64,000 bases of DNA from the NCBI RefSeq assembly GCF_022869805.1, contig NZ_CP094974.1:4402001-4466000 (forward strand), read 5' to 3'. Origin of the DNA: Halosolutus halophilus (lineage in GTDB: Archaea > Halobacteriota > Halobacteria > Halobacteriales > Natrialbaceae). Positions within the stretch are counted from its first letter, which is position 1; each line of letters opens with the position of its first letter. The position numbers and the translations under genes were made by a program. Of this stretch, positions 15,011 through 54,620 are shown piece by piece. The notes under the pieces are model-generated. The model had not been told where the DNA came from. It searched no databases and saw nothing but the letters and a program-made list of their open reading frames with translations.

Positions 15011-15898
15011 TTATTCGTGGGGTTCTCGAACGGCCGCGATCGTCTCGCGGGCCAGCGCGTCGAACGTCGCCTCCGCCGGTACCACGTCGACGTCTATCCC
15101 CCGCGACTCGGCGGTCCGCTTCGTCGGGTCGCCGATCGCGCCGACGGTCGCGCCCCGGAGGCCCGCGAGGGCCGATTCGCGGACCCCGCGCACGTCGGCG
15201 GCCTCGAGGAAGTGATCGACCGTCAGCGACGAGGTGAAACAGGCGGCGTCGAGTTCGTTCTCGGCCGCGAGTTCGGCCGACTCGCCGCTCCCCTCGGGTC
15301 GGACCAGCCGGTAGAGGATCGTCTCGTGGACGTACGCGCCCGCGCTCTCGAGTCCCTCGAGCAGGACGTCGCTGCCGTGATCGCTCCGGGCGACCTCGAT
15401 GCGGACACCGTCGACCCCGGCTCGCGGCTCCGCCGTCTGCTCGCGGTCTGACGGACCGCTCGCATGGTCCGAGGGACTCGGAGAGTCCCTCGCTACTCGA
15501 CTGTCCGCGGAACGGAGTTCCGCGCTACTCGCTCGTTCCCCGGAGCCACGCTCCGCGCTCCCGTCGAGCGCCGCGACGAGGCCGCTCGACGTGAACTCCT
15601 CGGGGACGAGATCGACCTCGTAGCCCACGTCGCGGAGGGCGTCGGCCGTCGCGGGCCCGATCGCACAGACGGTCGCGTCGCCGGGGTCCCAGCCGGCGTC
15701 GGCGGCGAGTTCCGCGCCGGTCTTGCTCGTCAAAATCACGTAGTCGGCGTCGGTCCGTGGGGCGGCGTCGGTCGGTTCGACGGCGAGCATGGGGTCCGGA
15801 ACGGGGTCCGCACCGAGTGATTCGAGCAGGTCGGCGGCGTCCGCGAGCCGATCGTCGTCGGGGCGAAAGACGGCGACCGTGGGGGTGTCGTCACTCAT
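15011..15898 (-). CDS. hemD: Uroporphyrinogen-III synthase
   Basis: 295-aa HemD, which closes hydroxymethylbilane to uroporphyrinogen III. The two-domain HemD fold is visible: VAVFRPDDDRLADAADLLESLG, YVILTSKTGAELAADAGWD, then CAIGPATADALRDVGYEVDLVP. The second half has DAACFTSSLTVDHFLEAA and GATVGAIGDPTKRTAESRG. Residues about 110-160 are an Arg/Ser/Glu-rich linker not seen in compact HemD proteins; it is encoded by three GC-rich hairpins inserted in frame (15471-15555). Last gene of the hemC-cobA-hemD operon; its ATG lies six bases after the cobA stop. Confidence 0.92.
   Translation of the reverse strand: MSDDTPTVAVFRPDDDRLADAADLLESLGADPVPDPMLAVEPTDAAPRTDADYVILTSKTGAELAADAGWDPGDATVCAIGPATADALRDVGYEVDLVPEEFTSSGLVAALDGSAERGSGERASSAELRSADSRVARDSPSPSDHASGPSDREQTAEPRAGVDGVRIEVARSDHGSDVLLEGLESAGAYVHETILYRLVRPEGSGESAELAAENELDAACFTSSLTVDHFLEAADVRGVRESALAGLRGATVGAIGDPTKRTAESRGIDVDVVPAEATFDALARETIAAVREPHE
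15471..15555. repeat. Three in-frame hairpin elements inside hemD
   Basis: Three perfect hairpins, each with a 3-nt loop. GAGGGACTC/GAGTCCCTC is at 15471-15491, CGCGGAAC/GTTCCGCG at 15506-15524, and CGGAGC/GCTCCG at 15541-15555. The first two are each followed by GCTACTCG or CTACTCG on the plus strand. They keep the hemD frame and encode a low-complexity linker. The middle one is the same 19-bp palindrome found in pspAB at 54353-54371. Confidence 0.75.
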
Positions 15899-49712: not shown

Positions 49713-50993
49713 CTACCCGAACCGGGCGTCGACGACGACGTGATCCACGCCGGCGCTGTGACTCTTGACCCGGCGGCGATCGAGCACCGTGAGGTCCCGG
49801 TCGGCGTCCTCGGCCGCCCGTTCGAGTCGCTCGATCGGCCGGTCCCAGAGCCGCGGTTCGGGCGTCGCCTCGTGGTAGTGGACGACGCCGCCCGGGCGGA
49901 GTGCGGCGAGGGCGTCGTCGAGGAACGTGTAGGCCTCGTCGTCGCGCGCGCGGTCGTCCCGTTCGTCCCGATCGCGGTCCTCCTCGTCGGGCGCGTCGGC
50001 CGCGCTCCCGTAGTACCCCATCACGACCCGATCGACCGCGAGGTCGCCGGCGAGGTCCCGGCAGTCGGTCATGTAGGCATCGACCCGATCGGCCACGTCG
50101 TTGAGCATCGCGTTCTCGACGAGATAGCGGAACGCGGTCGGATTACGTTCCGTCGCCGTCACCCGCGCGCCGGCGCGGGCCATCGGGAGCGTGAAGTAGC
50201 CGATGCCGGCGAACATGTCGAAGACGTGCTCGTCCGCCGCGACGAGGTCACCCATTCGCGCCCGTTCGGCCTGGTTGCCCGGCGAGAACATCACCGTCGC
50301 GGGGTCGAGGCCGTACCGGGTGCCGTGTTCGACGTGGACGGTCTCGGTGTCCCGCTCGCCCGCGACGTGGCGGGTCCGGGGCTCGCGGTAGGTGCCCGCC
50401 GCGCCGTCGTTCGCGATCCCCTCGTCGGCCAGCACGCTGTCGGCCTCGCCGTGCAGTTCGAGCAGCGCCTCGCCGAGGTCCTCTTCGTCGGGACAGTCCT
50501 CGGGCACCGTCACGAGAACGACGGAGCCGACGACGGCCCACGAACCCGGCGCGGCCCCGATCTCGGCCTCGCTCCAGCCTCGATCGGCGAGCAGGTCCGC
50601 CAGGTCCCGCGTCCGGGGCTCGGGATCGACCTGTCGGACGACCTCAAGTACCTGCGTCTCCGTCGGCGGCTCCGTTACCGGGAGCGCGATCCGATCGGGT
50701 CCACCCTCGCGATCCCCGCGCTCACGGGTCGCTTTGTTCTCCGTCTGCTCACGGGCCCCTTGCTCCCGTTCGCACGGTTCGCGGGACCAGAGGTCCCGCG
50801 CTATTCGCGTATCCGAGGGCTTCGCTCCGCTCACCCCTCTCACCCGCCGCGAGTCGTCGTAGACGCCCTCGTCGCGCAGCGACTCGATCGCGGTCTCCGT
50901 CCGCGATTTCTCGACGATCGCGGCCAGCGGGGCGGCGTCCGGGCCGGGGAGCGACGGTTCGAGCGACTCGCTCGCGTCGGGGTCCTCAGTCAT
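49713..50993 (-). CDS. tRNA (guanine/wyosine) methyltransferase, Trm5/Taw2-like
   Basis: 426-aa class I SAM-dependent enzyme of the Trm5/Taw2 group. Residues about 200-320 carry RTRHVAGERDTETVHVEHG, the conserved FSPGNQAERARMGDLV and motif I HVFDMFAGIGYFTLPMA, then TATERNPTAFRYLVENA. The C-terminus ends HSAGVDHVVVDARFG. Group members methylate G37 (Trm5) or transfer the aminocarboxypropyl group in wyosine synthesis (Taw2); I cannot separate them by eye. After GVYDDSRRV (residues about 45-55) there is a 40-residue Arg/Glu-rich insert encoded partly by a hairpin (50780-50800). The start overlaps the nmd3 stop by eight bases, so the two genes are coupled. Confidence 0.85.
   Translation of the reverse strand: MTEDPDASESLEPSLPGPDAAPLAAIVEKSRTETAIESLRDEGVYDDSRRVRGVSGAKPSDTRIARDLWSREPCEREQGAREQTENKATRERGDREGGPDRIALPVTEPPTETQVLEVVRQVDPEPRTRDLADLLADRGWSEAEIGAAPGSWAVVGSVVLVTVPEDCPDEEDLGEALLELHGEADSVLADEGIANDGAAGTYREPRTRHVAGERDTETVHVEHGTRYGLDPATVMFSPGNQAERARMGDLVAADEHVFDMFAGIGYFTLPMARAGARVTATERNPTAFRYLVENAMLNDVADRVDAYMTDCRDLAGDLAVDRVVMGYYGSAADAPDEEDRDRDERDDRARDDEAYTFLDDALAALRPGGVVHYHEATPEPRLWDRPIERLERAAEDADRDLTVLDRRRVKSHSAGVDHVVVDARFG
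50780..50800. repeat. In-frame hairpin element inside the Trm5/Taw2-like gene
   Basis: CGCGGGACC (50780-50788), loop AGA, and GGTCCCGCG (50792-50800) form a perfect 9-bp hairpin with a 3-nt loop. On the coding strand it is preceded by AATAG and followed by AACCGTGCGA, matching the flanks (GTAG before, GACNGT-CGA after) of the copies in hemD and pspAB. Confidence 0.7.
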
Positions 50994-52212
50994 CGCTCTC
51001 GCCGTTCGCGTATGGATCGTACCGTTCCGATTCGTCGGCGTCGTCGCCCGTGTCCGGATCGGGATCGGGGAGGATGTGGAGGCCGGCACGGCTCTTCAGC
51101 ACGGGAACCGTCTCGGCGTCGGGATCGAAGTAGTTGGGTCGGGAGACGGTCTCCGCCCGGTAGGTATCGGGGTCGAGGACCTGGACTGCGTGTTCGTCCT
51201 CGACGGTGACGACCGTCGTCTCGACGGCGTCGTCGCGCTCGCCGAGTTTCCGCGCGTCGGGGGCCGCGCCCTCCTCGTAGTCGGCTTCGTACCGATCGCC
51301 GGTCGTCACCCGGATCCCCTTGAGGTTCCCGTGGGCGCTCCGGACGAGGACGGGGCCGCCCTCGTCGTCGGCGAGGTCGATCACGTCGCCGGGGGTGTAC
51401 GGCGGCAGGCGGACGGCGAAGGTCACCCGGTAAACCTCGTTGCCGTCCTCGTCCTCCGTGACGAGAGTCTCCGCGTCGTTCACGGTGCCGCCGAACTCCT
51501 CGACCATCTTGTTCGCGATCTTCTTCCCGATCTTGTTGGTCGAGACCTTGATGTTCAGCCCGTCGTCGACCTCGCCCATCTCGGTGACGAAGGCGTTCCG
51601 ATCGCCGGTGGCCTCCATGTCGGCGACGACAGCGTTCGCGATCTCTTTCGCCCGGTCCATCTCCTCGCTCGTCGGCGTCCGATCGTCGGCGCGGATCTGG
51701 ACGATGCTGGCGTAGTAGTCGCCGGCGATCCGGCCGCACCGGGTGCAGGTCTGGCGGGCGATCCTGACCGGGACCGTCACCTGCTCTTCGACCGGCGTCC
51801 CCCGCACGACCCCGGTGAAGTAGGCGTGCATCCGAATCGTGTTCTCGTCGACCTGTTCGGGTTCGACCTGCCAGGCGACGTCGTCGACGTCGACGTGGAC
51901 GCCGAGCGACTCGCTGACCTCCTCGATCGCGATGTCGGTGTAATCCTCCGCGCCGACGTCCACCCACCGGTTCCCGCGGTAGACCGCGCCACACTGGGCA
52001 CAGACCCGGACGTCGATCCGGTCCGGCGCGTCCACGAAGTCGAAGTCCTCGAAGTAGCACTCGTCGCAGAGTTCGACCTCGGTGCCGGGACGGAGCGGAT
52101 CGGTAGCGTGCCCGCCGGCACGTTCGGCCTCGGGATCGCCGTCCGCGTCGCTGGCCGATCGATCGGGCACCGGGTCCCCACACCGGGGACAGAACGCACG
52201 CGACTCGCTCAT
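50986..52212 (-). CDS. nmd3: NMD3-like ribosome export/assembly protein
   Basis: 408-aa archaeal NMD3 homolog, a 50S/60S-subunit assembly factor. The N-terminal zinc sites are AFCPRCGDPVP and ELCDECYFEDFD, then VRVCAQCGAVY and a further QTCTRCGRIAG; NMD3 has such a Cx2C array. Residues about 90-260 form the core (KIGKKIANKMVEEFGGTVND), and a beta domain follows. In eukaryotes NMD3 bridges to nuclear export; in archaea only the ribosome-binding part is expected. The start at 52212 gives MSESRAFCPRCG. The C-terminus is acidic. Confidence 0.9.
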   Translation of the reverse strand: MSESRAFCPRCGDPVPDRSASDADGDPEAERAGGHATDPLRPGTEVELCDECYFEDFDFVDAPDRIDVRVCAQCGAVYRGNRWVDVGAEDYTDIAIEEVSESLGVHVDVDDVAWQVEPEQVDENTIRMHAYFTGVVRGTPVEEQVTVPVRIARQTCTRCGRIAGDYYASIVQIRADDRTPTSEEMDRAKEIANAVVADMEATGDRNAFVTEMGEVDDGLNIKVSTNKIGKKIANKMVEEFGGTVNDAETLVTEDEDGNEVYRVTFAVRLPPYTPGDVIDLADDEGGPVLVRSAHGNLKGIRVTTGDRYEADYEEGAAPDARKLGERDDAVETTVVTVEDEHAVQVLDPDTYRAETVSRPNYFDPDAETVPVLKSRAGLHILPDPDPDTGDDADESERYDPYANGESDD

Positions 52213-53912: not shown

Positions 53913-54620
53913 ATGGGACTGCTCGACGGACTCCGTGCCGTCCTCGGGTTGCGCGCCGAGGCCGACGCGAAACGGGACGCCGACCCCGACGACCTCTTCG
54001 GGATGAGTACCGCCTACCTCACGATGGAAGCCGATCTCGGCTACGAGTCGCTCGACGTCGGGGCGCTGTGTTTCTCCGGCGTCGATTCGAGTAGCTTCCG
54101 TGACGCCGTCGACGAGGTCGAGGCTATCCTCGAGGCCGGCCAGGAGGAGACCGGAACGGAGTTCTCGGTCTCCGCGGACGACCACGGCTACCACTGGGTC
54201 GTCCTCCGGGACGAGGATCCGGAGGATCTCGTCACGAGTCTGCACTTCGCCGCGGACACGTTCATCGAGCACGGCTACGGATCGCGCCTGCTCGCGGCCG
54301 TCTTCGCCTACGAGAAAGGCGATGCCGCGATGCGGCATCGAGACGGGGGTAGCGCGGAACGGAGTTCCGCGGACCGTTCGAGCGGACAACGTCCGCGAGA
54401 AGACGGCGAAGCCGCCGACGGGAACGGTCGCGTCTACTGGATCTACTCCTTCCGCCGCGGCCGGTTCTACCCCTTCGCGCCCCGCTCCGGCCGCGAGCGC
54501 GACTCGAGCGCGGAGTTCAAACTCGAGGCGGCGCTGGACGGCGAACTCGAGATCGAACGCGAGAAGGAGTACTGGTACCCGCTGTGGCCGAGTCAGGGCG
54601 GCCGCCACCCCTGGGAGTGA
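53913..54620 (+). CDS. pspAB: PspA-associated protein PspAB
   Basis: 235-aa soluble protein of the PspAB family, linked in archaea and actinobacteria to PspA-type membrane stress and HtpX. It begins MGLLDGLRAVLGLRAEADAK, with AYLTMEADLGYESLDVGALC and GYHWVVLRDEDPEDLVTSLH. The C-terminus RVYWIYSFRRGRFYPFAPRS and EYWYPLWPSQG is conserved. Residues about 137-165 (RHRDGGSAERSSADRSSGQR) are low complexity and come from three in-frame hairpins (54321-54396). The htpX gene lies upstream on the same strand. Confidence 0.88.
   Translation: MGLLDGLRAVLGLRAEADAKRDADPDDLFGMSTAYLTMEADLGYESLDVGALCFSGVDSSSFRDAVDEVEAILEAGQEETGTEFSVSADDHGYHWVVLRDEDPEDLVTSLHFAADTFIEHGYGSRLLAAVFAYEKGDAAMRHRDGGSAERSSADRSSGQRPREDGEAADGNGRVYWIYSFRRGRFYPFAPRSGRERDSSAEFKLEAALDGELEIEREKEYWYPLWPSQGGRHPWE
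54321..54396. repeat. Three in-frame hairpin elements inside pspAB
   Basis: Perfect hairpins with 3-nt loops: GATGCCGC/GCGGCATC (54321-54339), CGCGGAAC/GTTCCGCG (54353-54371) and GCGGAC/GTCCGC (54382-54396). The middle one matches the hemD copy base for base on the plus strand, CGCGGAACGGAGTTCCGCG, in an unrelated gene 39 kb away. All keep the pspAB frame. Confidence 0.75.

Follow-up and report, generated by a model that had tools for sequence, protein, structure and literature searches.

A short palindromic DNA element dispersed through Halobacteria, probably inserted inside protein-coding genes and read in one frame

We describe here a short palindromic DNA element that, with a probability of about 85%, is dispersed through Halobacteria, integrates within protein-coding genes and persists at those sites where one particular frame is read. 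It was noticed in a window of 64,000 nt of Halosolutus halophilus (NZ_CP094974.1:4402001-4466000; genome G000, a single contig of 5.06 Mb), in which the 19-nt palindrome CGCGGAACGGAGTTCCGCG is present, base for base identical, in hemD and in pspAB (Table 1). The flanks had been called similar, and both copies indeed read GTAG, the 19-mer and then GAC in the coding direction of the respective gene; the 3-nt loop is inverted between them. The original prediction was that such identity marks a repeated element rather than convergent coding sequence, and this is what we find, since throughout the order dozens of proteins unrelated to one another contain the same element in the same frame. A genome-wide count, set beforehand as one refuting test, came out far above chance. 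The exact 19-mer has two copies in the whole genome, those in hemD and pspAB, where base composition predicts about 0.0002 and 5 Mb of 6th-order Markov sequence contained none. With the loop left free there are four copies against about 0.006 expected, and this free-loop pattern occurs in 80 of 125 family genomes, while the same pattern read backwards occurs in 0 of 125. Counting exact 19-mers is too narrow because the stems vary in pairs, and it understates an element that is larger and more structured. Neither a general excess of hairpins nor k-mer over-representation revealed the family.

The 19-mer is the first hairpin of an element of about 51 nt (51-62), which consists of two hairpins and conserved linkers in the order AGC-(8-bp hairpin)-GAC-linker-(4-6-bp hairpin)-CGAGAA, and whose predicted peptide is SAERSSADRSSGxxPRED. 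In the alignment of free-loop-pattern copies, the consensus of the first hairpin (H2) is CGCGGAAC-NNN-GTTCCGCG, that of the second (H3) is GCGGGC-NNN-GCCCGC, and the linkers are GAC...TCGAG and CGAGAAGACGG. The stems covary: in an alignment of 102 copies, 95 of them distinct, pairing is intact in 98.6% of cells, and both sides have changed in 7 of the 14 stem pairs, with 56 such cells against 10.8 after shuffling, a signal beyond 500 shuffles and all slid controls. The seed copies of our covariance model share the H2 stem, and the conservation of H2 is partly by construction. As a protein domain the peptide drew no NCBIfam match for the two peptides tested, up to an E-value of 10, and a Pfam scan of host proteins reported only the host families.

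Table 1. Coordinates in the window of the pspAB, hemD and third copies of the element, with their host features
Feature	Position	Strand	Basis or detail
pspAB CDS (PspA-associated protein B, PF22742), 235 aa	53913..54617	+	Pfam E 1.9e-70, 189-position profile
Expanded PspAB loop, residues 134-174, 41 aa	54312..54434	+	loop comparison with orthologs
Older-insertion hairpin GATGCCGC-GAT-GCGGCATC	54321..54339	+	shared with 23-aa-loop relatives, paired changes there
Element, 18-codon in-frame insertion SAERSSADRSSGQRPRED, residues 147-164	54351..54404	+	missing from sampled orthologs
Hairpin H2 (19-mer), 8-bp arms, 3-nt loop	54353..54371	+	
Hairpin H3, GCGGAC-AAC-GTCCGC	54382..54396	+	
hemD (uroporphyrinogen-III synthase), 295 aa	15011..15898	-	PF02602 E 1.8e-43; NF004587
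HemD insertion, residues 114-161, multi-hairpin version of the element	15416..15559	-	ortholog loop comparison
hemD copy of H2, its loop the inverse of that in pspAB, encodes SAELRSAD	15506..15524	-	
Further hairpin of the hemD insertion, 10-bp arms	15470..15492	-	
Third copy, subtype B linkers	50738..50805	-	covariance model, 48.5 bits

Homologs of pspAB are present in 122 of 125 family genomes. Among the roughly thirty homologs whose loops we compared, most short forms have a turn of 7 aa, the base state, and other relatives have roughly 12-24 aa; the loop measures about 23 aa (22-24) in several genera and in the congener G015, and 15 in the congener G016, against 41 here. The 23-aa state already contains two hairpins, the arms of which change together in situ. 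All sampled orthologs, both congeners included, are without the 18-codon insertion. Thus the expectation that orthologs would lack the segment held for those sampled, although its extent did not: residues 137-165 had been proposed, and the recent insertion is shorter (Table 1). Similarly, the hairpins proposed to flank the palindrome, with arms of 8 and 6 bp, are found as described in pspAB but not in hemD, where one neighbour has longer arms (Table 1) and the other has arms of about 6 bp. The covariance model matches pspAB at 54348-54409 with 84.1 bits. An alignment-based structure model of moderate quality (pLDDT 61; the single-sequence model was poor, at 50) places residues 139-170, with pLDDT below 50, between strands 126-135 and 173-179, and the insert is predicted to form a disordered turn.

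The HemD loop is about 57 aa long here against 9-13 aa in most aligned orthologs and 34 in G038; at this position G068, a genome from another genus, has a copy of the element of its own. In argB, orthologs contain the element at two different sites, each of them empty in the others. At the first site, the filled gene of G111 reads GGGGAG/AGC...GAA/GACGT (slashes mark the edges of the insert), versus GGAGAGGACGT in the empty ortholog L225; this is a clean insertion of 51 nt, and target duplication, one of the hallmarks of a MITE, is not evident. The insertion in argB of G089 is a separate one, which lies a few codons off. In-frame insertion together with an empty ortholog site is therefore seen in pspAB, hemD and argB. 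The window also holds a third copy, within a Trm5/TYW2-like methyltransferase gene (49713-51089, minus strand; PF02475/PF25133), and this one is read in frame +1, not frame 0.

Beyond the window, 99 copies of the element fall into 53 unrelated host-gene clusters, as defined by BLAST with the element masked. In the genome under study, the hosts include a histidine kinase, a HerA-like helicase, a member of the glycosyl transferase 3 family, an FAD oxidase, an M29 peptidase, a class I tRNA synthetase and a GATase. The presence among the hosts of core enzymes with recognisable domains suggests that the host proteins stay functional. To assign frames, a codon model derived from the H. halophilus genome was applied to all six frames of the DNA flanking the 99 copies. 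Both flanks agree in 37 clusters, 35 of which read frame 0, on the element's own strand, with 2 in frame +1 and none antisense, a preference for frame 0 with p about 3e-25 against 1/6. Support for frame 0 is absent in 5 of the 53 clusters, two of which read frame +1, and the core length belongs to one mod-3 class in 80 of 84. At least one flank is coding in 48 of 53 clusters; these genomes are gene-dense, so coding location alone represents no clear enrichment.

The consensus is free of stop codons in all six frames. Only in the frame that is used, frame 0, is the encoded peptide net acidic and devoid of hydrophobic residues, and selection would therefore purge insertions in other frames. We propose that copies arise through a copy-and-insert process acting on hairpin DNA, and that selection in the salt-adapted, acidic proteome would remove other-frame insertions and leave those in surface turns. 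The host protein would tolerate the peptide as a linker, with no benefit required. The arms may stay perfect for one of two reasons: the hairpin may be required for mobility, or template switching may repair each arm against its partner.

The element is a feature of one order. At E-values up to 1e-3, the covariance model finds 12 copies in the H. halophilus genome, the third window copy included. It matches 124 of 125 family genomes, in which the copy number reaches 35, and at the level of the order 234 of 293 genomes; outside the order, matches are confined to one genome and are marginal (E about 1e-4), the E-values of the model being rough. Searched across 84,980 prokaryote species, an exact 35-mer pattern had 38 matches, every one of them haloarchaeal by record title or by the placement of the host genome among haloarchaeal records. 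For carriage by phages or viruses, tblastn against 50,697 phage records was negative, as was an exact pattern search of IMG/VR. Two further observations concern the edges of this distribution. In G485, a genome of the same phylum but of another family, outside the order, two loci (L325, L326) contain hairpin arrays with the similar stems CGCGGAAC and CGTGGAGC and weak model matches. On the haloarchaeal plasmids NZ_CP100403.1, NZ_CP100003.1 and NZ_CP147842.1, the peptide appears, with weak E-values, inside an annotated mercuric reductase (merA).

How could such an element move? It is possible, although we favour it less than not, that the right-end (omega-RNA) hairpin of tnpB transposons of the IS605 type gave rise to the elements or carries them along, which would make them akin to the palindrome-associated elements (PATEs) of Haloquadratum; this is a sub-hypothesis, compatible with a dispersed element kept in one frame. 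Different genera have full copies at the 3' end of tnpB, within or adjoining the right-end hairpin (L381, L388, L390), where related tnpB copies have just a 4-nt loop (for example ACGGC-TTTA-GCCGT). Moreover, the coding copies at L195 and L371 share the tnpB flank for 10-12 nt upstream and 18 nt downstream, and others share less. These tnpB-end copies and shared flanks suggest a link to IS605-type transposons. However, most coding copies have no tnpB flank, the element may merely have inserted into tnpB ends, and G006, with six copies of the element, has no tnpB match. That the right-end hairpin is itself the source or vehicle of the coding palindromes we consider somewhat doubtful. If it were, the RNA scaffold of an RNA-guided nuclease system would seed in-frame peptide insertions in housekeeping proteins throughout Halobacteria.

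A different mobiliser would be a RAYT (Y1/IS200-type) transposase, moving the elements as GTAG-tagged REPs in the way known from gammaproteobacteria. The base before AGC is T in 44 of 53 clusters, the foot of the hairpin has the tetranucleotide GTAG in 25 of 53 and ATAG in another 14, and a 3-nt GAC tail follows in 33; GTAG REPs, too, are short hairpins whose stems carry alternative but complementary residues, at times with a 3-bp tail, and some of them lie inside genes (PMC3733652). This reading is nonetheless unlikely. No Y1_Tnp (PF01797) match was found in the H. halophilus genome or in the element-rich genomes G016, G011 and G073, the loci of Y1 genes elsewhere have only weak matches nearby and no strong copy, and the clean argB insertions carry no tag (GAG-AGC, GGA-AGC). 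As a separate observation, IS200-type tnpA genes at L353 and L354 (around 1440-1540) and L350 (1808-1869) contain what appear to be two different in-frame palindromes (VPK-SGGTEGPADLAEQGSAQ-YRR).

One could also imagine that a hydrophilic linker peptide useful to proteins is what selection maintains, the palindrome being a by-product. One frame and one peptide do dominate, and the paired change seen most often, GGAAC/GTTCC to GGAGC/GCTCC, leaves the amino acids of both sides unaltered. Yet other paired changes alter the peptide while the palindrome survives (SEGRSPSD, RVERSSTD), and copies with the peptide intact but the palindrome gone are rare. Some copies, at tnpB ends and away from long reading frames in G198, are non-coding, and the peptide is found in unrelated enzymes, all of which makes a selected linker quite improbable. 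Less probable still is removal of the segment at the RNA level, intron-like or bypassed, which would make the frame irrelevant. Strong hairpins are predicted in the transcript, and yeast mitochondria offer a precedent for palindromic elements that are bypassed (PMC6649704), but frame, strand and length are constrained here, which removal would not require, and the used frame is without stop codons. Finally, chance palindromes favoured by the GC-rich codon composition can be set aside almost completely. In their favour, hairpins with arms of at least 8 bp exceed the Markov expectation for the H. halophilus genome by a factor of no more than about 1.4, but this specific element lies far above expectation and is confined to one order.

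The closest kinds of known element are the Rickettsia palindromic elements (RPEs) and the intragenic REPs. RPEs (Ogata 2000, 2002) are described in PMC10969869 and PMC3733652 as in-frame palindromic insertions in functional genes. As in RPEs, a dispersed palindrome recurs here in frame in unrelated functional genes, as the RPE-like class is defined, and encodes a recurrent peptide; another likeness is to the CGTC-tagged kind, which has no known dedicated transposase. In contrast, RPEs are about 150 bp long and their families were described from Rickettsia, while the haloarchaeal element measures 51-62 nt, with two hairpins and conserved linkers, extends across an order and is nearly always read in one frame. 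Homology to an RPE family was not found in NCBIfam or among the exact pattern matches, all haloarchaeal, and it is by their descriptions that the two are set apart. The GTAG and CGTC intragenic REPs (Di Nocera 2013, PMC3733652) resemble the element in being short hairpins with alternative, mutually complementary residues in the stem that may lie within genes, and the GTAG kind also in its 3-nt tail and in the GTAG-like foot, seen in about half of the host clusters here. They differ in that REPs are reported from bacterial phyla and are tied to RAYT genes, whereas the H. halophilus genome has no Y1 transposase match, and in that the coding copies described here share one frame.

The nearest haloarchaeal elements are the PATEs of Haloquadratum (PMC3119063). 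PATEs and IS605-type ends are, like our element, haloarchaeal, transposase-free and palindromic, with no target duplication seen, and terminal-only versions of 52 bp are reported; the right ends of tnpB hold some of our copies. The PATE descriptions considered here do not mention coding copies that are in frame and share a conserved peptide, and most of our copies have no tnpB flank. In nematomorph mitochondria, palindromy is also kept inside coding sequence, and template switching has been proposed to keep the arms identical (PMC6649704), but there the arms are conserved host sequence and not a dispersed inserted element. Searches of the open-access literature, with subscription journals mostly outside their coverage, returned no account of coding palindromes in archaea. 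Rickettsia and certain bacterial REPs provide the best-known coding palindromes, and here we would add a family that spans an archaeal order and occupies many core genes. The filled and empty ortholog sites allow tests of the way in which proteins gain peptide from selfish hairpin DNA, of the reason for the success of a single frame and of the identity of the mobiliser. For annotation, such inserts would explain lineage-specific loops in haloarchaeal enzymes.

Some repeats lie outside clear or long reading frames. In G198, four loci (L290-L293), each about 160 bp long and almost identical to one another, lie outside long reading frames and are built as hairpin arrays ending in GACGAGAAAAAAGG; their terminal hairpin recurs at many other sites of that genome. 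In G075, subtype B copies (L310-L313) lie outside clear coding frames and are followed by a common GGCTGGGGAGGGCGTGGC-like stretch.
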